Source: a virus. Taken from it: a stretch of DNA of 38,629 nucleotides. The first letter of the stretch is position 1; the number at the start of each line of letters is the position of its first letter. Below the pieces are notes generated by a model, which was given only the letters and a program-made list of their open reading frames with translations, was not told the DNA's origin and did no database searches. Made by a program: the position numbers and the translations under genes. This document shows, piece after piece, positions 4,595 to 23,282 of this stretch. The DNA lies in IMG/VR virus record IMGVR_UViG_3300036985_003590, positions 1 through 38,629 of that record, one strand, 5' to 3'.

Positions 4595-5377
4595 ATGGCA
4601 AATCCACAGGTTGAAAATGGTTATACAGCAATAGCAAACGAAATTATGGACGCACTTTGTCACATAAGAATACCGGGAGAGGAAAGACAGATTTTAGACT
4701 GTATCCTTCGTAAAACTTACGGCTGGAATAAATGTGAAGATGCGATTGCGCTATCACAATTTACGGAAATGACCGGCCTCAAAAAGCCAACAGTTTGTAG
4801 GGCAATAAGCAGGCTATTATCAAAAAAGATAATCACCATTATCGAAAAAGATAACGAACCAGCAAAACTATATAAATTTACTAAAGATTATACTAAGTGG
4901 CAACCATTATCAAAAAAGATAACGTTATCAAAAAAGATAATCACCGTTATCAAAAAAGATAATCCGTCGTTATCATTATTGAGTACCACAAAAGACACTA
5001 CTACAAAAGACACTCTTACAAAAGAAAGAACTATGCCGGAAAAATCCGGCAGCTCTTACTCTAAAGATTTTTTGTTATTTTGGTCATCATACCCAAAAAG
5101 ATCAGGTTCAAAATCACAGTCATGGAAAAACTGGAAAAAACTCAACGGTAATAATCCGGGCATTGAGGTTATTTTAGCAGCAATCAAAGCACAAACTGAG
5201 TGGAGGGCAAACGCCAGGGATGGGGACTTCCGACCAGAGTGGAAAGACCCTGAACGCTGGCTTAAAAACCACATGTGGGAAGCGGAGTTTGTTGCTGATA
5301 AAAAAATAACTCTTCAAGAGTGGGCCGTGAAAAGACAGGCGGAAATGGAGGCAGAGGAAAAAAATGCAGTTACATGA
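4595..5377 (+). CDS. Replication initiator, phage O-like (260 aa)
   Basis: The N-terminal 100 residues match the phage replication protein O DNA-binding domain: ENGYTAIANEIMDAL, then ERQILDCILRKTYGWNK and a winged-helix part with TGLKKPTVCRAISRLLSKKII. The C-terminal part (from about residue 155) has FWSSYPKRSGSKSQSWKNW and PERWLKNHMWE, a pattern common in phage replication proteins. The central part (residues 75-130) is translated from iterons and so repeats LSKKII and KKDN. As in lambda, the initiator gene contains the probable origin. AGGAAGTG precedes the ATG. The next gene begins inside its last codons. Confidence 0.88.
   Translation: MANPQVENGYTAIANEIMDALCHIRIPGEERQILDCILRKTYGWNKCEDAIALSQFTEMTGLKKPTVCRAISRLLSKKIITIIEKDNEPAKLYKFTKDYTKWQPLSKKITLSKKIITVIKKDNPSLSLLSTTKDTTTKDTLTKERTMPEKSGSSYSKDFLLFWSSYPKRSGSKSQSWKNWKKLNGNNPGIEVILAAIKAQTEWRANARDGDFRPEWKDPERWLKNHMWEAEFVADKKITLQEWAVKRQAEMEAEEKNAVT
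4817..4962 (+). repeat. Iteron array, probable replication origin
   Basis: Five 16-bp copies of TTATCAAAAAAGATAA lie inside the initiator gene at 4817-4832, 4839-4854, 4907-4922, 4925-4940 and 4947-4962. Four are perfect and the second has one change (G for A). Each copy is itself an inverted repeat (TTATC/GATAA around six adenines). Spacing between starts is 22, 68, 18 and 22 bp, and a further half-site, TTATCATTATT, follows. An A-rich stretch with repeated ACAAAAGACAC follows to about 5035, as expected for a melting region. In lambda, O protein binds four iterons inside gene O in the same arrangement. Confidence 0.82.
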
Positions 5378-5783
5378 ATTTACCAAGGCAGTTTCAACCC
5401 TATGCGATTTTTACGAACGGAAGGAGCCAAAGCAAGCCACGATTGAATTATGGTTTAAGCTGGTTAATCGAATGCCATCAGAGCCTATCTCTTGGATCGT
5501 CAAGAAAATTCAGGAAACCTCTGACAGTTTCCCGCGAAATATAACCGCGACATTTTGGGGAGCTTATGGTGAATGGCAGAATGCGCATCCCGATAAGAGA
5601 GCAGGCAAAAACTACTTTGACTGCCCGGAATGTTCAGAGGGTTTGATATTCGCCAAAGGCAAAGCAAGTCGAGGCAGTTATGTTTTTCGGTGTATTCGGT
5701 GCAAGCAAGATAACACGGCAGCTTATCCACAGGCAAGCAGGCTTGAGTTATTACAAGATAATGAAGTGAGGAAAACTGCTTAA
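5364..5783 (+). CDS. Zinc-ribbon replication protein, possible helicase loader (139 aa)
   Basis: The N-terminal 75 residues are helical (MQLHEFTKAVSTLCDFYERK, then LWFKLVNRMP and WIVKKIQE). The C-terminal half is a zinc ribbon with CPEC near residue 87 and CIRC near residue 110. The gene starts within the end of the initiator gene, so the two are coupled. In lambda-like phages this position is taken by the helicase loader, and the helical N-terminus fits the kind of domain seen in such loaders. I see no Walker motifs, so it is not a DnaC-type ATPase. Loader function is inferred from position alone. Confidence 0.6.
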   Translation: MQLHEFTKAVSTLCDFYERKEPKQATIELWFKLVNRMPSEPISWIVKKIQETSDSFPRNITATFWGAYGEWQNAHPDKRAGKNYFDCPECSEGLIFAKGKASRGSYVFRCIRCKQDNTAAYPQASRLELLQDNEVRKTA

Positions 5784-6571: not shown

Positions 6572-6753
6572 GCAAACCAATTCAAATACTCGCGCAAGCG
6601 GCTGGATATAAAAACCTAAAGATCGAGGGAGGGTTCAGATTGAGCCTTGACATCTTCGAGAGCCGGGATCAGGACATTGCCATGTGCGCCCTGCTGGTAA
6701 ACAAGCGGGCGAATTTAAAACTAACAATTGAGCCGGTGGAGGAAAAGAAATGA
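6568..6753 (+). CDS. Small hypothetical protein (61 aa)
   Basis: The ATG overlaps the stop of the previous gene (ATGA), so translation is coupled. The product begins MSKPIQILAQAAGYKNLKI and has a mixed helix and strand pattern with no cysteine cluster or membrane segment. The family is not recognised. Its end overlaps the next start (ATGA), placing it firmly in the operon. Confidence 0.6.
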   Translation: MSKPIQILAQAAGYKNLKIEGGFRLSLDIFESRDQDIAMCALLVNKRANLKLTIEPVEEKK

Positions 6754-6986
6754 CTGAACTTGATATTGCTCGTGGGCGTAAGGAGATTATGGAATTGTTA
6801 CGCGTTGAAGATTGGGGGACTGTGAGAACTTGGGTGCGCCGGTATAATTTACCCTTGCGAAGAATGCCCGGAAGACAGCAACCGTTTCTTTTTGTGGGTG
6901 ATGTGAAACGGTGGTTATTAAAATATTCAGATTTAGAATTTAAAAACAAAAATAACGTCACTTCTTATAAATTAAAGAAAAAATAA
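6750..6986 (+). CDS. Small winged-helix/MerR-like DNA-binding protein (78 aa)
   Basis: Residues 10-55 read RKEIMELLRVEDWGTVRTW followed by RRMPGRQQPFLFVGDVKRWL. This is the layout of excisionase-like or MerR-like helix-turn-helix domains, in which the second half (a PxxxxxxxVxxWL motif) makes the wing and helix. The tail is basic (KLKKK). It is the last gene before the packaging module and could be an excisionase, a late-gene regulator or a packaging factor. Coupled start ATGA. A 70-bp gap with a putative promoter follows. Confidence 0.6.
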   Translation: MTELDIARGRKEIMELLRVEDWGTVRTWVRRYNLPLRRMPGRQQPFLFVGDVKRWLLKYSDLEFKNKNNVTSYKLKKK

Positions 6987-14164: not shown

Positions 14165-14731
14165 ATGATCGAATTACAGGCAAAAGAGAAAGACAAATAC
14201 GACCGGATGCACCAGATACCCGGATACAGTCCGGGGCCGGGTATATCATTTGTCAGTAACGCTCTGAGATATATCAAGCAGAGCGATTCGATCATTGATT
14301 TCGGATGCGGTACAGGGGATGCAGCGCAGGCATTTATTGACCTGGGGCATGATGTTCATGCGGTTGATATATCGTCCAAAGGTTTACATCATGACCTTGG
14401 AGAGAAATATCATCAGTCATCGCTTCACGATTTGCCGAAGGAATTACCTCTGGCTGATTGGGGATTTTGTGTTGACGTGATGGAGCATGTGCCGACACCA
14501 TGGGTTGATATAGCATTGTGGCAGATGTCCAGAAAAGTTGAGAACTGTTTTTTCTCGATCTCTGGCCAGAAGGACGGATGGGGAGCAAAGATCAATGACG
14601 TATTGCATTTAACCGTTATGCCTGGCGAATGGTGGCTGGGTAAAATCAGCGAGCATTGGCATGATGTCCGATGGGTAAATACCGCCGGAAACTCATACGA
14701 AATAGTGGCAAAAGGGGCGAAACGTGACTGA
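14165..14731 (+). CDS. SAM-dependent methyltransferase 1 (188 aa)
   Basis: A class I methyltransferase core is visible: motif I DFGCGTGDA at residues 45-53, a following acidic VDIS at the end of the second strand, and LADWGFCVDVMEHVP near residue 100 (motif IV region). The C-terminal half has MPGEWWLGKISEHW. The substrate is not evident. It does not look like a DNA methyltransferase (no DPPY or NPPY). It overlaps the next gene, a Rossmann-like protein, and both precede the DGR tail-fibre gene. A second, related methyltransferase is at 22710. They may modify a small molecule or a surface sugar. Confidence 0.8.
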   Translation: MIELQAKEKDKYDRMHQIPGYSPGPGISFVSNALRYIKQSDSIIDFGCGTGDAAQAFIDLGHDVHAVDISSKGLHHDLGEKYHQSSLHDLPKELPLADWGFCVDVMEHVPTPWVDIALWQMSRKVENCFFSISGQKDGWGAKINDVLHLTVMPGEWWLGKISEHWHDVRWVNTAGNSYEIVAKGAKRD

Positions 14732-15356
14732 TGTACCTATCTGGGAAAGTAACGGCATAAGAGGCAGGGGCGAAAAGGCTCCCGGTTGTGCCGGCAGCTT
14801 CAAAGGCACGGCGGTTGTGCTGGGATCAGCGCGGTGTATCTGGGACGATTGCGCCAAGATAGATTTCACCAAGGTTGAAGTAATTGCCATTAACAACATG
14901 ATTATGCACTGGAAAGACCGCGTCCATCATGGAGTGTCATTGCACCCGGAAGAACCGCCTCTTTGGAGGCAATTGCGCTGGACGAATCAATGCGAGGAAA
15001 GCCATGTCATAACACACAGTCATCGGCTGCCAGAGAACAACGATAACCTAGCGCCACAAGAGTTTAAGACGCGATGTGGTCTCGATTACCTTTGGGAGAT
15101 TGAGGGTGGCAGGGGTGGCAGTTCCGGCCTATTTGCGGCGATGATTGGCTTGGCCTTGGGTTATGACAAGATCATTCTCGCCGGTGTGCCCATAGACGGG
15201 ACAGGGCATTTCTTTGATCCTCCGGGGAAGGTGGTAAATCAGTTTCTAGGGACAAACATTAAAGAAGAATGGGACAACGCAAACCACAATTATTTTAAAG
15301 GTAGAGTTAAATCATTATCAGGTCGAACGAAAGAATGGTTGGGAGAACCGGAATGA
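14724..15356 (+). CDS. Rossmann-like protein, possible sugar-related (210 aa)
   Basis: The GTG start has AGGGG upstream and overlaps the methyltransferase stop. The beginning is GTAVVLGSARCIWDD, a nucleotide-binding-like turn, and a second characteristic part is SGLFAAMIGLALGYDKIILAG followed by PIDGTGHFFDP (written as its two parts). This pattern recurs in phage and surface-glycan genes and resembles DUF115/MptE-like proteins. The reaction is unknown. The gene runs into the DGR target gene by ATGA. Its place between a methyltransferase and a variable receptor-binding protein suggests an effect on the cell surface or the fibre. Confidence 0.5.
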   Translation: MTDVPIWESNGIRGRGEKAPGCAGSFKGTAVVLGSARCIWDDCAKIDFTKVEVIAINNMIMHWKDRVHHGVSLHPEEPPLWRQLRWTNQCEESHVITHSHRLPENNDNLAPQEFKTRCGLDYLWEIEGGRGGSSGLFAAMIGLALGYDKIILAGVPIDGTGHFFDPPGKVVNQFLGTNIKEEWDNANHNYFKGRVKSLSGRTKEWLGEPE

Positions 15357-16813
15357 GGAATAAAAGATACACAAATCTGGCAAGAAGAGAATTAACAATA
15401 ACATCAGCCGTTTCTAATGATCCGTATGATGCAGATACTTGGAATGGTGTGGATCATGTTGCCCCTTCTAAAAATGCTGTAAGAGATCAGTTTTTGGCAC
15501 TAGGTACACCAGATATTGCTTTTGCTTCCTCTGCTGAGGTCGCAGCCGGGACGGTGACAGATAAGGCAATTGCTCCCGACACTTTAAAAACAGCACTTGA
15601 CCTAAAGGCAAACATCACTCCCTCTTATTATGGCGTGTCGTGGGACGAATCCTTAGATACATACGCTAGAACAGGAGATAATGCAGGGTATCAAGTAGGG
15701 GCAACTCTTGGGAATACCCGTCTGCCTATACAGGCGAACATGAAAAGATGTTTAGTGGCAGATGATGGGACAGTCAACCACTATCTTGACCAAACAAATT
15801 CAGCATTATTAGCTGAGGGCGGTGCTTCAGATTTAACCGGCGCTGATGGTCAGGTAATGGTTCAGATACCGAAGTTTTGGCATAGACACACTTATGTTGG
15901 CACGGTGCATACATGGGAAATAAGCACAGTTGCAAGAGCCGGGTTTAGCGTTCATCAGGCATTTGTATCCGGGGCAACAGAATATGACTATATTTATATC
16001 GGAGCTTATGAGGCTATTCTCTGGGATGCCACAACGTCCACTTACATAGATTATGTATCCGGTGCGACCATTGACCATGATAATGACAAACTTAGCAGCG
16101 TAACAGCAAAAAGACCCGTCACAAACATAACGCGACATTTTGGCAGGGTAATGGCAGCTAAACGAGGCGCGGGCTGGTCACAAGAATTGTATGATTACCG
16201 GTCGGCAGTTCAACTGTTATACCTGACCGAGTATGCCAGCTTTAATTCACAGGCCAAGATCGGTGCAGGCATTTCCAATGTAACAGATTGGGCGGGTATT
16301 TCTTATTATCCATTTGCTCCGTCTGGTAACTCCAACTCAATAGGTAATGCCACTGGTAACACAGCTGGTGGGACGGGATACGCAGCAGAAGCCAGCAAGT
16401 ATATGTCTTACCGAGGGATAGAGAACTTTTACGGCCATTTATACAAATGGATGGATGGCTTAAACGTCTATGAAAGCGGCGGCAATCATCGTGCATGGGT
16501 GTGTAATGTCCTTGCTAATCTGGCTGACGATACAACAACCAACTATTCTGACACTGGCGTTAATTGCAAAGCGGATGATGGTTATCAAAATACATTAATC
16601 AACATAGACAGAGGTTTCTTACCGGCGGTGGGATCTGATGCAGATGCGGCAACTAAGATTACTGATTATTATTACCAAACTACGGGTTGGGCGGTTGCCC
16701 TTTCGGGGGGTTGGGCGGCTGATGGCGCGTATGGCGGTGTCTTCTATCTGAATGTCGGCAATGCGTCCTCCATTTCCCATGCGTATTTCGGCTCCCGCGT
16801 GTGTTTTAGATAA
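15353..16813 (+). CDS. DGR target: variable tail fibre / receptor-binding protein (486 aa)
   Basis: The preferred ATG overlaps the previous stop (ATGA) and has GGGAG upstream; an ATG at 15335 is possible. Residues 35-90 have a tail-fibre repeat (DIAFASSAEVAAGTVTDKAI followed by DTLKTAL). From about residue 250 the protein has the C-type-lectin/formylglycine-enzyme-like fold common in DGR proteins, with YRGIENFYGHLYKWMDG. The last 43 residues are the variable repeat, ending in NVGNASSISHAYFGSRVCFR. Many variable positions sit at former Asn codons. It should mediate host binding, with diversification of the receptor site by retrohoming. Confidence 0.93.
   Translation: MRNKRYTNLARRELTITSAVSNDPYDADTWNGVDHVAPSKNAVRDQFLALGTPDIAFASSAEVAAGTVTDKAIAPDTLKTALDLKANITPSYYGVSWDESLDTYARTGDNAGYQVGATLGNTRLPIQANMKRCLVADDGTVNHYLDQTNSALLAEGGASDLTGADGQVMVQIPKFWHRHTYVGTVHTWEISTVARAGFSVHQAFVSGATEYDYIYIGAYEAILWDATTSTYIDYVSGATIDHDNDKLSSVTAKRPVTNITRHFGRVMAAKRGAGWSQELYDYRSAVQLLYLTEYASFNSQAKIGAGISNVTDWAGISYYPFAPSGNSNSIGNATGNTAGGTGYAAEASKYMSYRGIENFYGHLYKWMDGLNVYESGGNHRAWVCNVLANLADDTTTNYSDTGVNCKADDGYQNTLINIDRGFLPAVGSDADAATKITDYYYQTTGWAVALSGGWAADGAYGGVFYLNVGNASSISHAYFGSRVCFR
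16684..16807 (+). repeat. DGR variable repeat (VR)
   Basis: This is a 124-bp stretch at the 3' end of the target gene that aligns without gaps to 16888-17011 (offset 204). Of 23 differences, 22 are at adenines of the other copy, and adenine is replaced by G, T or C. It ends two codons before the stop. The last bases (CTCCC-CGT-TGTTT) are the likely region for initiation of mutagenic homology. Confidence 0.95.
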
Positions 16814-16887: not shown

Positions 16888-17011
16888 GAGTTAGGCGGTT
16901 GCCCATTCAGGGGGTTATGCGAATAATGGCACGAATGACAGTGTCTTCTATCTGAATGTCAACAATGCGTCCTCCAATTCCAATGCGAATATCAGCTCCC
17001 ACGTATGTTTA
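16888..17011 (+). repeat. DGR template repeat (TR)
   Basis: This is the invariant donor copy, in the gap between the target gene and the reverse transcriptase. It has 32 adenines, of which 22 differ in the VR. Read in the VR frame it would give many Asn codons (AAT/AAC), the usual design that gives broad variation at mutated adenines. The third codon in that frame is TAG (16892-16894), aligned with TGG in the VR. One non-adenine difference is present (16918, T in TR against G in VR). Confidence 0.95.
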
Positions 17012-17129: not shown

Positions 17130-18188
17130 ATGAAACGGTACGGTAATTTATACGAGAAGATTTACGACATCGAGAATATTCGACTTGCCCATCATAACGC
17201 CCGGAAAGGTAAAAAACATTATGATGGTGTAGGCATTGTTGATGCTAATCCTGAATTTTACTTTGAGCAAATCCATGAGATGTTGAAGAACAAGACGTTT
17301 AAAAATGCTCCGTATCATGTCTTTAAAAGAAAATTCGGCACTAAAGAACGTGAAATATTCAAGCTACCTTATTTCCCGGATAGAATCATCCATCATTGTA
17401 TCATGCAGATTATGGAGCCTATCTGGAAAAAGTCATTGATACGGGACACCTATTCATCAATTAAAGGCAGAGGCTTGCATGATGGCGTAAAGAGGGTAAA
17501 GCAGGCGCTAAAAGATAAAGAAGGCACTAAATATTGTCTGAAATTAGACATCAAAAAGTTTTACCCGTCTGTCGATCATGATATTTTAAAGCAGATAATC
17601 AGGAAAAAGATTAAATGCCCGGATACGCTTTGGCTTCTGGATGAAATAATAGACTCCACACCCGGTATTCCCATTGGCAATTATCTGTCTCAATACTTCG
17701 GAAATATATATCTGTCAGGGCTTGATCATTTTATAAAAGAAACCTTACGAGTTAAATATCACTTTAGGTATTGTGACGATCTGGTGTTATTTGCCGGAAC
17801 CAAAACAGCGCTACATGCCGCGATTAATTCCATAAAAGAGTATTGCAGTTCATCCCTGTTGCTGTCCTTGAAAAGCAGCTATCAAATTTATCCTATTGAC
17901 ATTCGCGGGGTTGATTTCCTTGGGTACAGATTCTTCCACGGCTTTATATTATTACGCAAATCTATTGTCAGAAACTTCAAAATTAAAATAACCTCTATCC
18001 GTAAAGATTGGGGAAAAATATCCGCAACCAAGGTTATCAATGGATTGATGAGTTATTACGGCTGGATAAAATATGCTGATTGCAAGAGGCTTTTTGATAA
18101 ATATGTGGACACAGAAATAAAGAACATTGTTGGGGTATGTTGTGTCCAACTAAAACAAAATAACCCCTTGATGGAGGTTGCACCATGA
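17130..18188 (+). CDS. DGR reverse transcriptase (352 aa)
   Basis: It copies the template repeat with errors at adenines. Palm motifs are in order: FKLPYFPDRIIHHCIM (residues 73-90), LKLDIKKFYPS (about 137-147), IPIGNYLSQYFGN (about 179-191, the DGR-type motif 4 with SQ), YCDDLVLF (213-220, the catalytic Asp pair) and VDFLGYRFF (about 262-270). The length is usual for DGR RTs, and there is no maturase or endonuclease domain. AAGGA precedes the ATG. Its stop overlaps the next gene's ATG (ATGA), so it is co-translated with two small downstream genes. Confidence 0.96.
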   Translation: MKRYGNLYEKIYDIENIRLAHHNARKGKKHYDGVGIVDANPEFYFEQIHEMLKNKTFKNAPYHVFKRKFGTKEREIFKLPYFPDRIIHHCIMQIMEPIWKKSLIRDTYSSIKGRGLHDGVKRVKQALKDKEGTKYCLKLDIKKFYPSVDHDILKQIIRKKIKCPDTLWLLDEIIDSTPGIPIGNYLSQYFGNIYLSGLDHFIKETLRVKYHFRYCDDLVLFAGTKTALHAAINSIKEYCSSSLLLSLKSSYQIYPIDIRGVDFLGYRFFHGFILLRKSIVRNFKIKITSIRKDWGKISATKVINGLMSYYGWIKYADCKRLFDKYVDTEIKNIVGVCCVQLKQNNPLMEVAP

Positions 18189-18574
18189 AATCAAACTCAG
18201 ACTCTATACCTCTAACCACAGTTAAATCTAATGGTTTAACCCAAGTTAGATATGATGCTATCGAAGTAACCAGAGAAAACCCCGATGGTAGCACAAAGAC
18301 AAGTTACGATTTTTCTTATGTGGAGATTGAAGGTGAACTGACAAGAAGCAAAATAATTAACGCTATTATCGCTGAGGTCCATACCAAAGATGCAGAACTG
18401 GCACTGATAAACAACGAACTTGCCACTATTAAATCTATGTTTGAGAGTAAAGATGTAGAATTAACTCCCACAAATAGAGAGATTGTTGGCACAAAGATAG
18501 AACCATACAGCGATTATCAGTTGTTAAGGGCGCACGCTAAAGCAATTGCTGACGTTGTGCTGGAATCAATTTAA
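18185..18574 (+). CDS. DGR-linked small protein 1 (129 aa)
   Basis: The ATG overlaps the RT stop and the gene's own stop overlaps the next ATG (TAATG), so three genes are translated in series. The first 55 residues look beta-rich (TQVRYDAIEVT and SYDFSYVEIEG). The rest is helical, with SKIINAIIAEVHTKDAELAL and a final YQLLRAHAKAIADVVLESI. It does not match the four-helix Avd accessory protein in length pattern or composition. The family is not recognised. Coupling suggests a DGR-related role, but a tail-fibre chaperone or small virion protein cannot be excluded. Confidence 0.6.
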   Translation: MKSNSDSIPLTTVKSNGLTQVRYDAIEVTRENPDGSTKTSYDFSYVEIEGELTRSKIINAIIAEVHTKDAELALINNELATIKSMFESKDVELTPTNREIVGTKIEPYSDYQLLRAHAKAIADVVLESI

Positions 18575-18885
18575 TGGAGGAGTCGGAACCGCCAAAACGA
18601 TTTAGTGACTTCGCCCGCGAACATGTCCCTTTAGACGGGGTGAAGCTGAAAATTGACGATATTATAAACAAAGAAATAACGGTGATCGGCTACAGAGTCA
18701 AGGACAGTAAATTTACAAAGGATAAAGTTACCACATGCTTAACTATACAGTTTTTACTTGGAGATGCGCGACATGTTGTCTTTACCGGAAGTGGGGTGTT
18801 GTTGGATCAATGCAAATCCTACGAAAACGAAATCCCATTTTTGGCAACGGTAAAGAAGATAGATAAGTATTTTACGTTTACATAA
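18574..18885 (+). CDS. DGR-linked small protein 2, possible OB-fold ssDNA binder (103 aa)
   Basis: The beginning is RFSDFAREHVPLDGVKLKID, followed by ITVIGYRVKDSKF, then TTCLTIQFLLGDARHVVFTG and PFLATVKKIDKYFTF. Alternating strands of this sort fit a small OB-like barrel, as in single-strand binding proteins, and similar small genes accompany DGR RTs in other phages as far as I recall. The start is coupled to the gene above (TAATG). If it binds ssDNA it could protect the mutagenic cDNA. The OB call is by pattern and is not certain. Confidence 0.5.
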   Translation: MEESEPPKRFSDFAREHVPLDGVKLKIDDIINKEITVIGYRVKDSKFTKDKVTTCLTIQFLLGDARHVVFTGSGVLLDQCKSYENEIPFLATVKKIDKYFTFT

Positions 18886-18900
18886 AGGAGGCAGCATTAA

Positions 18901-19821
18901 ATGCCAGCTAAACTTATCACATTAGAAGATTATCCATCATTGGGGGGGCAATACTGTTTCATTCAAAGGGCAGTTGACGGGTACATACTGGAAAATTCAG
19001 CGTCCGCCGGTCATACTCTGGGCGAATTTTATTCTCAATCAACAGTGACAGACAAAAAGATTCTTTTAATAGAGAACCCGAATATGCCTGGTGTTTACGA
19101 AGGATCAGAAAACAGGGTTGCTTTCGATGATGGCAAGTACATTGTGCGATATTGTCAGTCGGATGATGTAATTGTAGCGGTTGAAGAGTGGAGTATCCGG
19201 GGCGATGCGATTATGGATGAAACCGAATGGATGGTCACGGTACCCGTTGGAATGAATGCGCTTGGCGCTTCTGATTTGGTTATCTGCAACAATGCGCTAC
19301 GACTTCTGGGTAACAACCCCATCAATGCCATAACGGACGATAATAAGGCGGCTAAACTCTGCCTGCAATTCTATCAGCAAACAGTTGACGCGGTTTTAAG
19401 AGCTTATACTTGGAACTGTGCCACAGTCGGATCAGCGGCATTGGTTGCGGCAACGGCTCCGACATTTGGGTTTAGTTACGCTTACGAACTGCCGTCCGGC
19501 TGCCTGCGTGTCTTAATGATCTCTGATGACGATACAATAAAGTTTAAGATTCAAAACGGGTTTCTTTTAACCGATGAGGGAACCGCACAAATATCATACA
19601 TCAAACGCATTGGCGCTGATGAAATGGATAGTCTGTTGATTGAAGTAATGTCCGCACGATTGGCGGCGACAATAGCGCTTGGTTTGACCAATTCACCGAC
19701 CATGGCTGAAAGTGTCTGGAAACTTTACAAAGACAAATTAGACGAAGCGCAAACCGTTGATGCTTTTGAGGGGACGGCCCCACAACTAGCGTCTAATGAT
19801 TGGATTAATTCAAGGGGGTAG
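18901..19821 (+). CDS. Tail tubular protein A-like with N-terminal extension (306 aa)
   Basis: From about residue 119 (MNALGASDLVICNNALRLLG) to the end the protein matches the podovirus tail tubular protein A (T7 gp11-like), with YTWNCATVGSAALVA, a SYAYELPSGCLRVL motif and a final helical part. It forms the ring below the portal. T7 gp11 has about 196 residues, so the first 118 residues here are extra. They are beta-rich (QYCFIQRAVDGYILENS, YIVRYCQSDDVIV) and may be an attachment module for the fibres encoded just upstream. GGAGG precedes the ATG. Confidence 0.85.
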   Translation: MPAKLITLEDYPSLGGQYCFIQRAVDGYILENSASAGHTLGEFYSQSTVTDKKILLIENPNMPGVYEGSENRVAFDDGKYIVRYCQSDDVIVAVEEWSIRGDAIMDETEWMVTVPVGMNALGASDLVICNNALRLLGNNPINAITDDNKAAKLCLQFYQQTVDAVLRAYTWNCATVGSAALVAATAPTFGFSYAYELPSGCLRVLMISDDDTIKFKIQNGFLLTDEGTAQISYIKRIGADEMDSLLIEVMSARLAATIALGLTNSPTMAESVWKLYKDKLDEAQTVDAFEGTAPQLASNDWINSRG

Positions 19822-19824
19822 GTA

Positions 19825-22713
19825 ATGCCAAGAGTATCGCCCGCGATCACTAATTTCACCGCCGGAGAATACAGCCCGCAGATGTTCGGGCAGATTGATC
19901 TTGCGTCCTATCCTAACGCTTGTCGGTTACTGCGTAATTTCGTTTGTCGCGTGCATGGCGGCGGGCAGAAGAGACCGGGAACGATCTTTATTGCCGAAGT
20001 GAAAGACAGCACAAAAGAAACCCGTCTCATCCCCTTCCAGTATTCGACAGAACAGGCTTATGTTTTGGAATTAGGCAACTCATACATGCGCGTGTTTATG
20101 GATAGGGGCCAGGTGCTTGATGATGAAAGCGATCCTTTTGAGTCGGGAACTCCTTACGTAACTGCTGATCTTAGTTCCCTTCGTTTTGCCCAAGACAAAG
20201 ACCTCATGTATTTATTTTTGAGAAGCAAACCAATTCAAAAACTCATTCGTTATGATCATGATGATTGGATATGTAAAAATGCCCCTATTGAAGACGGGCC
20301 ATATTTACCGAGTAACGCCGCGGCAGAGATCGGAGTTAATTTAGTTCCTGATCCCGATATGGAGGGTAACACGGGTTGGACATCGGTTGGCAGCCCCTTA
20401 GTGCAAGAACAAAGCACAGAAAGATTTTACGCAGGTGCATACTCCCGCAAATTATTAGCGCTGGTAGCTACGGATGGAGTAAAATCCGGCGTCTTTACAA
20501 CGGTTACTGCAAGCAATTATCGTATAAGGTTCAGGGTATTTACGTCGGCGGGAACATTAATCTTAAAGTTTCATCCAGGCAGTGATTCGGGTACATTAGT
20601 AACAATAGACACTTTGACCGGCATACCATCAGAGGAATGGACAGAGTACGAAAGATGGTACACGGAAACGGCAGGGGGAGCGGCAGCATATATTGAATTT
20701 TTGGGGCCAGCGGTGATTTTGTCGGCCACAGAACTAATTACTAATGGGAATTGTGAAGTAATCACAGGATGGACAAAAACAGGAGAATGGGCAGAACACG
20801 TTATAGCTTTAGATTCGGCTCAAAAACACGCGGGTACATATTCCCTTAAATATACAAAAGATGTCTCTCACGCTGCGGAAACAGCAGTCATCCATAGTGC
20901 TAATTTTTATACAGAGGAAGGAAAATGGTATAAATATAGTTTTTGGTTGCGCGGTGATGCCGCCAATTCATATACCTATAAAATCAGGTCAGGCGATGAT
21001 TCGGAAGATATGGTCAGTGCAACCGTCACACCGACAGCGGACACATGGACTAATTACACCGGATACTACAAAGAAACAGGAACAGGGGGATATGCTAAGT
21101 TTTATATTTCCCATCTTGGAGCAGCCGGCGTTTTGGTGGAATGGAGAATAGACGATGTTTCTATTAAAGAAGTCACATCCGAAATCTTCATTGATAATGT
21201 TGAGATATTTAAGATTGATTCATTAACAATGACACCCTCTGCCATCACGGGCAATGGGATTACATTAACGGCCAGCTCTTCATACTTTGTGGCCGGTCAT
21301 ATCGGCGCATTTTTCCGTTTAACTCATGATTCAACCACGGGGCATGTCATTATAAGAAGCATTACATCGGGCACAGTGGCGGTTGCTGATGTGATAACTA
21401 CCCTAGGTGACGATGCGGCAACGGATAATTTTGCCGAAGGCGCATGGTCGATAAAGAACGGATACCCGTCATGCGGTTGTTTTTTTGAACAGCGCCTAAT
21501 GGTGGCATCGTCAGAGAATGATGCAGACGCAGTATGGGGGTCAAAGCCGACAGAATATGAAGACTTTACGCCCGGCGTTTTAGACGCTGATCCGGTTGCC
21601 TACAAGTTACAATCAGATATTATCCGTTGGCTTGGTGCAATGGGGCAGTTGGTTGTCGGTACGGTGAATGCAGAATATCGGTTAGGTGCGCAAAGTGACG
21701 CGGCAGCATTAACGCCAACAAATGTTAAATTGACACCGCAAAGCCGGAAGGGATCATCAGACCTTGACCCGGTGAATGTCGGCAACGCTATCCTGTTTGT
21801 GCAACGCCGGGGCAATGCCGAGAATAGCGGGACAAAGCTCCGCGAGTTATCCTACAATTACGTCAATGATTCTTACGATGGCATTGACCTGTCATTATTT
21901 GCAGAACACATCAGTGGATCAGGGTTTAAACGAGTTGTTTTTATGTCCTCCCCGTTCCCTATATTATGGGGACAAACAGAAGATGGTCGGCTGGTAGGTA
22001 TGACGTATGAACGTGAGCAGAAGGTTATCGGCTGGCATTATCACCCGATGGACGGATTAGTCGAGGATATCTGCGTGATCCCCGGAGACAACCAGGACGA
22101 TTTGTACATGATAGTCAACCGGACAATAGACGGAGTGGAAAAGCGATATATTGAAGTAATGGCCGATTTTGATTTCGGGACAGACTATAAAGACGCTTAT
22201 TTTGTTGATTGCGGATTATCTTATGATGGATCTCCGACAAGCAGTTTATCGGGATTAGAACACCTGGAAGGTAAAACCGTTGCAATTTTAGCAGACGGAA
22301 TTGTGCAAACTAAAAAAACGGTTGCCAATGGCGGGATCGCGCTGGATACCGCCGCTTCTGTTATCCATGTGGGCCTACCCTATACCAGCGAGCTTGAACC
22401 TTTAGACCTTCAGGGCGGCTCTATCGAGGGCGTAAGTCAAGGGAAAATCAAGCGTATTCATGGCGTGGCTTTATATCTCTACAATTCGATGGGCGGGGAA
22501 ATCGGGCAAGATGCGAACACAACCGAAAGGATATTTTATAAAGAAGAGACTGAGGGCGCAGGCGAACAACTCGATCTGTTTACCGGGATAAAGGACGATT
22601 TCAATTTTAGTGGTGATTGGCAGCTTGATGCCAGGGTTTATATTAAACACGATGACCCATTGCCATTTACTGTTTTATCAATACTCCCACGCTTCAGGAC
22701 GGAAGACCGATGA
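19825..22713 (+). CDS. Tail tubular protein B-like nozzle with inserted carbohydrate-binding modules (962 aa)
   Basis: The ends match tail tubular protein B (T7 gp12-like, the nozzle): an N-terminal NFTAGEYSPQMFGQIDLASY with NFVCRVHGGGQKRPGT, and a C-terminal half with CFFEQRLMVASSENDADAV, then a VVGTVNAEYRLGAQSD region. Between, at about residues 170-470, are two tandem jelly-roll modules of CBM4/9-like type: one from LVPDPDMEGNTGWTSVG, the other from LITNGNCEVITGWTKTGEW to WRIDDVSIKEV. The second appears to interrupt the first, since FIDNVEIFKI, the expected last strand of module one, follows it. They could bind host glycans. Confidence 0.88.
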   Translation: MPRVSPAITNFTAGEYSPQMFGQIDLASYPNACRLLRNFVCRVHGGGQKRPGTIFIAEVKDSTKETRLIPFQYSTEQAYVLELGNSYMRVFMDRGQVLDDESDPFESGTPYVTADLSSLRFAQDKDLMYLFLRSKPIQKLIRYDHDDWICKNAPIEDGPYLPSNAAAEIGVNLVPDPDMEGNTGWTSVGSPLVQEQSTERFYAGAYSRKLLALVATDGVKSGVFTTVTASNYRIRFRVFTSAGTLILKFHPGSDSGTLVTIDTLTGIPSEEWTEYERWYTETAGGAAAYIEFLGPAVILSATELITNGNCEVITGWTKTGEWAEHVIALDSAQKHAGTYSLKYTKDVSHAAETAVIHSANFYTEEGKWYKYSFWLRGDAANSYTYKIRSGDDSEDMVSATVTPTADTWTNYTGYYKETGTGGYAKFYISHLGAAGVLVEWRIDDVSIKEVTSEIFIDNVEIFKIDSLTMTPSAITGNGITLTASSSYFVAGHIGAFFRLTHDSTTGHVIIRSITSGTVAVADVITTLGDDAATDNFAEGAWSIKNGYPSCGCFFEQRLMVASSENDADAVWGSKPTEYEDFTPGVLDADPVAYKLQSDIIRWLGAMGQLVVGTVNAEYRLGAQSDAAALTPTNVKLTPQSRKGSSDLDPVNVGNAILFVQRRGNAENSGTKLRELSYNYVNDSYDGIDLSLFAEHISGSGFKRVVFMSSPFPILWGQTEDGRLVGMTYEREQKVIGWHYHPMDGLVEDICVIPGDNQDDLYMIVNRTIDGVEKRYIEVMADFDFGTDYKDAYFVDCGLSYDGSPTSSLSGLEHLEGKTVAILADGIVQTKKTVANGGIALDTAASVIHVGLPYTSELEPLDLQGGSIEGVSQGKIKRIHGVALYLYNSMGGEIGQDANTTERIFYKEETEGAGEQLDLFTGIKDDFNFSGDWQLDARVYIKHDDPLPFTVLSILPRFRTEDR

Positions 22714-23282
22714 CGACACCGCAAGACTTTAACGAGATATGGGAAAAGGGAGAATACCGCAGGGGTTCAACGTGTCAAAGACTTGTGCCGTTTCTCTTGC
22801 GCTATATACCCGCAGGCTCGACAATTAATGATTATGGCAGTGGTACAGGCAGGGCAGAAATCGAGTTGTTAAGGGCCGGTTATTTGATAAATATGGTGGA
22901 TTTTGCGTCCGTTGCCCTCGAAGATGAAACTCGTACGTTAATCGGGGATAAATTAACATACATAGTCAGCCCGCTTGAATCGTTGCCCGCTGATTTCCCG
23001 GTTGCTGATTGGGGTATTTGTATCAATGTTCTAATGACGGTTGACCCGGAAAAGTTGGACAAGATCATGTCGGAAATGCGCCGGACATGCCGCAATCTAA
23101 TAATCGAGGTTTATGATCGGACAGATGTCCGATTGGGTAAAGACCTCACCACGATTAAAGGAAACGCTGCTTTCTGGTTTACAGAAATGACAAAATACTG
23201 GAACTGTGTTGAATCGGTTGGAAGCCCTGAACATCATGGGCGATATATTACTATTGGACGGGAGGTGGTAAGTGGAACGTGA
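22710..23282 (+). CDS. SAM-dependent methyltransferase 2 (190 aa)
   Basis: Motif I is DYGSGTGRA (residues 41-49), and VADWGICINVLMTVD follows at about residue 98, parallel to LADWGFCVDVMEH in the methyltransferase at 14165. The two share length and layout, and thus look like old paralogues, though the active-site glycine loop differs (GSGTG against GCGTG). The GTG start of the next gene lies inside its end. It follows the nozzle gene by ATGA. The substrate is unknown. It is not of DNA-methyltransferase type. Confidence 0.75.
   Translation: MTTPQDFNEIWEKGEYRRGSTCQRLVPFLLRYIPAGSTINDYGSGTGRAEIELLRAGYLINMVDFASVALEDETRTLIGDKLTYIVSPLESLPADFPVADWGICINVLMTVDPEKLDKIMSEMRRTCRNLIIEVYDRTDVRLGKDLTTIKGNAAFWFTEMTKYWNCVESVGSPEHHGRYITIGREVVSGT

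Follow-up and report, generated by a model that had tools for sequence, protein, structure and literature searches.

A small OB-like protein linked to the reverse transcriptases of DGRs without Avd, a probable accessory factor

A family of small proteins, which we refer to as ORF B, shows a close genetic link to DGR reverse TRANSCRIPTASES. We think it probable that ORF B is an OB-like accessory protein of DGRs that lack Avd, likely one that binds single strands at the reverse transcriptase (RT), and that its neighbour ORF A is a companion of the tail fibre and not a DGR part. The first-pass annotation of this DNA had proposed both small genes as undescribed parts of the DGR. The proposal stands for ORF B, which is linked to DGR RTs, is found in frame with the RT and occurs in the position of Avd, and is not supported for ORF A, which stays with the fibre where RT and template repeat (TR) are absent.

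The window is a 38,629-base viral contig whose structural module is podovirus-like (Head-tail_con, Phage_capsid_2, Bbp19-like and nozzle). It also has a Phage_rep_O replication gene, and the DGR lies amid its tail genes (Table 1). The TR and the variable repeat (VR) align over 124 columns with 23 mismatches, 22 of which are at TR adenines, and the VR lies within the last codons of the target gene. The RT is related to BPP-1 Brt and to the RTs of crAss-like phages. This locus is a genuine DGR without a detectable Avd, as had been noted from the sequence at the outset. PF05635 had 0 matches at E≤0.01 among 44 window ORFs, a scan that omits the target, the RT, ORF A and ORF B; those four were scanned separately against Pfam, and neither ORF A nor ORF B had a meaningful family match. 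Searches by phmmer with bAvd and ACA1 Avd as queries found nothing in the window or in the RT loci. With no match in the Pfam and phmmer scans, an Avd homologue hidden among the window ORFs was ruled out. Two methyltransferase genes flank the DGR and tail genes of the window (14165-14731 and 22710-23282).

Table 1. Features of the DGR locus in the window
Feature	Coordinates	Strand	Evidence
DGR target, variable protein of tail-fibre type	15335..16813	+	phrog_5302 tail protein, E 1.1e-89; VR at 3' end
VR (variable repeat)	16684..16807	+	pairs with TR
TR (template repeat)	16888..17011	+	pairs with VR
DGR reverse transcriptase	17130..18188	+	phrog_1423, E 4.5e-116; PF00078 (RVT_1), E 3.7e-17
ORF A, 129 aa, pI 4.8, likely tail-fibre companion	18185..18574	+	phrog_11557; model pLDDT 90; RT-less relatives behind fibre
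ORF B, 103 aa, OB-like, proposed DGR accessory factor	18574..18885	+	RT linkage, in-frame RT, Avd position, model

The two small genes follow the RT with the overlaps first read from the sequence: the RT stop and the ORF A start overlap as ATGA (18185-18188), and the ORF A stop TAA (18572-18574) overlaps the ORF B start as TAATG (18572-18576). Compared with a relative (L001) by the NG86 method, dN/dS is about 0.06 for the RT, 0.21 (0.125/0.598) for ORF A and 0.10 (0.039/0.390) for ORF B, ratios that indicate purifying selection on both small genes. Because these ratios are low and both genes have relatives elsewhere, ORF A and ORF B are more than chance ORFs.

We searched for ORF B relatives with a profile built from five members and blind to the RT, and obtained 32 viral loci. 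An RT sequence adjoins ORF B in 29 of these (22/25 when distinct proteins are counted); within the 29, the RT is broken in L053 and cut by the contig end in L027. Locus L034 has no RT nearby but carries RT-ORF A-ORF B elsewhere on the same contig, and in L036 and L048 ORF B follows a tail-fibre gene in records where neither an RT nor a TR was found. In L048 an HNH-type homing endonuclease-like gene, recognised by eye (4870-5475), occupies the place of the RT between a lectin-type tail fibre and ORF B. Among 50,697 phage records, searched with four ORF B-family tblastn queries of which the last three added nothing further, the only relatives are those of vir525 (Methanosarcinales) and ANMV-1, and both lie directly after the RT (2/2). 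This neighbourhood is the one expected of ORF B if it is the DGR part that the first-pass annotation proposed. The family phrog_19665 was matched by 19/29 ORF B relatives (best E 6.5e-8), and the window's own ORF B had no PHROG match.

Starting from the RT, a profile of 12 seed RTs gave 80 loci, or 67 after removal of near-copies. ORF B is present in 56/80 (48/67), a count biased upwards because 9 of the 12 seeds came from ORF B loci. ORF A is present in 50/80 (43/67), the two occur together in 26/80, and no locus is without both. A TR/VR pair was present in 60 of the 61 RT loci with at least 1.5 kb of upstream DNA. ORF B is absent from 24/80 of these related DGR loci and occurs in only two of the 138 phage records whose RT is related, and is therefore optional. 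Another eight RT regions, taken from phage records, contained ORF B in 0/8 and ORF A in 3/8 (cr7_1, vir215 and, weakly, Arawn). The gene orders in the 67 loci are RT-B (22), RT-A-B (18), RT-A (18), RT-B-A (5), B-RT (2), A-RT-A (1) and A-RT-B (1). We rejected the idea that ORF A and ORF B form one system: they often co-occur, but either may be missing, and ORF A persists without the RT. On an RT tree of 86 rows made by a quick method, ORF B falls in three separate parts and 10 changes are needed. As a control we scanned with the gene that follows ORF B (18901-19821) and obtained three loci, too few for a baseline; two are close relatives that carry the DGR, and the third (L218) has no RT, ORF A or ORF B.

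The association extends to the reading frame of the RT. In L118 the RT and the ORF B domain form a single open frame of 464 aa, in which an internal Met could permit a separate ORF B product, and in L106 they are likewise in frame up to the contig end. The top two BFVD fold matches of ORF B are RT-domain proteins by description (E 7e-7 and 2e-6). In two other loci (L067 and L087) the order is VR-ORF B-TR-RT, the layout of the BPP-1 DGR (VR-avd-TR-RT) with ORF B in the avd slot. The C-terminal extension of the RT of crAss-like phage cr7_1 was matched weakly by Foldseek (E 6.6e-3); we did not count it as an RT-ORF B fusion. In-frame TAG codons occur both in the RT of cr7_1 and in the gene after it (L141, 2538-3810), because of which the annotated RT is truncated; the true RT frame seems to be recoded, with a beta-rich C-terminal extension.

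A working partner of the RT is at least equally suited by these in-frame loci and by the varied gene order as is a protein that controls the RT, for example by repressing translation of its own operon or limiting RT activity, without a role in homing; that alternative, to which the tight coupling or overlap of ORF B with the RT or ORF A would lend itself, we consider very improbable.

The ORF B model, built from 29 sequences (pLDDT 84, pTM 0.68), has strands at residues 34-44, 54-62 and 65-71, a helix at 74-82, and strands at 89-96 and 99-102. This order of elements is that of the OB fold, and an OB-like topology is predicted. The OB-like strand pattern proposed from the sequence fits the model, with weak matches to solved structures: the best was an insert of RuvB-like-2 (Z 6.8), followed by SSB (3lgj_B, Z 5.8, rmsd 2.3, 68 aligned) and PriB (5wqv_B, Z 5.5, rmsd 2.4, 65 aligned), with RPA, POT1 and Teb1 at about 4.4-4.6, in a comparison that covered the PDB folds of the VIA list and in which a Z below 8 may reflect merely a common arrangement. 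Foldseek against the PDB gave no significant match (best E 0.051), and a profile search of PDB sequences gave a best match of E 0.6. ORF B is not basic, with a near-neutral pI of 6.7 and a family median of 7.5. On the basis of the predicted fold we infer that ORF B may bind nucleic acid. Despite the likeness of the model to bacterial SSB and PriB, ORF B has no sequence similarity to them and is linked to the RT.

Relatives of ORF B also occur in cellular genomes, in part away from any DGR. Among 294 genomes of the phylum of G008 (record L020: Methanosaeta), the family is present in 8. In G008 and G248 an RT adjoins the ORF B-family gene; in G016, G026, G036, G046 and G054 the proteins have one or two OB-like repeats and acidic tails, with no RT near; and G292 carries a fragment with a stop, with no RT found. 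Archaeal DGR-free relatives with an acidic N-terminal tail and a single or double OB-like repeat are found in L165 (7041-7775, minus strand), L166 (6960-7661, plus strand), L167, L168, L169 and L170. By eye, pairs of these archaeal genomes share flanking genes: aminotransferase, lysA-like and dapF-like genes in one case, and deacetylase-like and isopropylmalate-dehydratase-like genes in the other. Such archaeal chromosomal relatives, together with the OB-like predicted fold, would suit a general-purpose SSB or replication protein of the virus, present in the RT operon by chance. We judge this improbable, since ORF B is found beside RTs and tail-fibre genes and has no sensible Pfam match, SSB models included.

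Among 296 genomes of the phylum of G009 (record L021: Bacteroides), ORF B is present in three, with an RT beside all three; these three also carry ORF A, in the order RT-A-B in two and on another contig in one. That ORF B is a gene of archaeal viruses only was ruled out by Phage_rep_O in the window and by two more genomes of the phylum of G009 with RT-ORF A-ORF B. At a contig end in L054 (3222-3320), the ORF B beside RT-ORF A breaks into two CRISPR-like repeats with a spacing of 61, which may reflect misassembly via a spacer with a match to ORF B. Some 14 kb from there, this contig carries another ORF B that differs from the first.

ORF A is an acidic protein of beta hairpins and helices. The division into a beta half and a helical half made at first reading is borne out by the model, with strands within residues 2-49 and helices within 54-128, and so is the statement that ORF A does not resemble Avd, given the missing Pfam match and the half of the model that is beta. 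No convincing match was found among PDB folds (best Z 5.3), and each of the eight BFVD matches at E≤0.001 is a viral protein that is uncharacterised or has no name, with crAss-like ones included. The family phrog_11557 was matched by 18/28 ORF A relatives. Two RT-blind profile scans gave 48 ORF A loci, 39 with an RT and 9 without. A contig end truncates three of the nine RT-less loci (L191, L204 and L215), and six have a tail-fibre gene upstream (L013, L175, L176, L186, L187 and L200). In the first five of these six, fibre and ORF A are present, the RT is absent from the record and TR/VR are absent. MetMV, a complete circular record, likewise has ORF A without RT or TR, behind a tail fibre by position. 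The sixth locus (L200, 3356-5836 of a 35.6-kb record) has a tail fibre, TR/VR and ORF A and ORF B sequence, with no RT found, and we read it as a DGR whose RT has been lost or is supplied in trans. Because loci without RT and TR keep the fibre-ORF A pair, with ORF A directly behind a CLec-type tail-fibre gene, ORF A goes with the fibre whether or not a DGR is present. We conclude that it more likely serves the tail fibre as a companion than belongs to the DGR. The first-pass annotation had named occurrence mostly in DGR-free phages, for instance as tail proteins, as evidence against its proposal, and the loci of ORF A come near to this; it had also taken tight coupling as a mark of a DGR part, and for ORF A translational coupling is by itself insufficient.

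The same RT-less ORF A loci could mean that both ORFs belong to the tail-fibre module, with a role in assembly or as chaperones, and hitchhike because the DGR targets the fibre. We regard this as unlikely, though it is the strongest of the alternatives. It accommodates the two loci in which ORF B itself lies behind the fibre without an RT, as well as L098, in which one frame joins the N-terminal half of ORF A to ORF B. By pairwise distances, ORF B tracks the RT no more closely (correlation 0.50) than ORF A does (0.47), and co-divergence with the RT was dropped as a discriminator between them because the values are alike. The hitchhiking reading does not accommodate ORF B in frame with the RT or in the Avd position of two loci, nor the phage records, which never show ORF B without a DGR RT. 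Furthermore, ORF B accompanies the RT without ORF A in 24/67 dereplicated loci, and is therefore no mere passenger of the tail companion.

Avd is a helical protein. ORF B, in contrast, is predicted to be beta-rich and OB-like, has no similarity to bAvd and lies downstream of the RT in the window, within a DGR that otherwise resembles that of BPP-1 in its tail-fibre target, in the same order of VR, TR and RT, and in having a small accessory gene. The named DGR accessory genes are Avd, which belongs to the PF05635/cd16375 group, HRDC and MSL (PMC10053308). HRDC and MSL are, like ORF B, extra genes linked to DGR RTs (PMC10053308), but have other domains (PF00570 and PF01624), to which ORF B has no Pfam match. 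DGRs without avd have been described in lineage 3 of the crAss-like phages (PMC7290462). For ANMV-1, the cassette figure draws an Avd ORF, and the gene behind the RT goes unmentioned in the cassette section (PMC4372165). A small ORF between AdtA and the RT of ANMV-1 (L018, 6726-6920, AJP62063) overlaps the TR (6705-6824), and its product resembles the VR-encoded end of the target; because of this overlap and likeness, AJP62063 probably represents the TR, annotated as a gene, and not Avd. No ORF B-like family is described in the available portions of the DGR literature (PMC4372165, PMC7290462, PMC8144416, PMC12875486, PMC10053308, PMC6642488, PMC10612066, PMC3240598, PMC7159879), with an earlier mention possible in the 2018 NAR accessory-gene or 2017 Nature Microbiology surveys. 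Nor do the accessible parts of publications on DGRs with OB-fold or single-stranded DNA-binding proteins describe such a protein. The families of the ORF A and ORF B relatives, phrog_11557 and phrog_19665, have no assigned function. ORF B, a previously unnamed protein, is probably a missing part of this DGR.

The TR-RT cassette sits between the tail-fibre gene and ORF A. We propose that one transcript would carry the TR, the RT and the small genes, and that coupling would keep ORF B near the RT. ORF B would act on or next to the RT, with a single-stranded ligand that may be the TR-RNA, the mutagenised cDNA or the VR target once opened. At the C-terminus of the RT it could hold the template RNA or emerging cDNA and shield it from nucleases; it could also help the cDNA pair with the opened VR, so that cDNA would be made or kept and handed to the VR. 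Contact with the RT, nucleic-acid binding and the step of action are inferences. When the BPP-1 DGR is reconstituted in E. coli, ExoI limits it in a way that does not depend on ExoI nuclease activity, and targets copied through lagging-strand synthesis are favoured (PMC12875486); a factor that holds or anneals cDNA would for these reasons be useful. Because two loci have ORF B where Avd would stand, it may instead do the job of Avd, supporting cDNA synthesis.

The ORF B family touches two questions, how mutagenic cDNA arises without Avd and how the cDNA enters the VR. Its presence in the Avd position or in frame with the RT makes both testable: DGRs without Avd could be reconstructed in E. coli in versions that have or lack ORF B, and the natural fused protein suits structure work. 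ORF B could also aid DGR-based tools for directed evolution. More tentatively, and as a suggestion to which we give slightly less than even weight, many DGRs of bacterial and archaeal viruses that lack Avd may rely on an OB-fold protein of their own, in some cases fused to the RT, that is dedicated to holding the template or cDNA, which would be a second, unrelated accessory solution, possibly with built-in delivery of single-stranded DNA.
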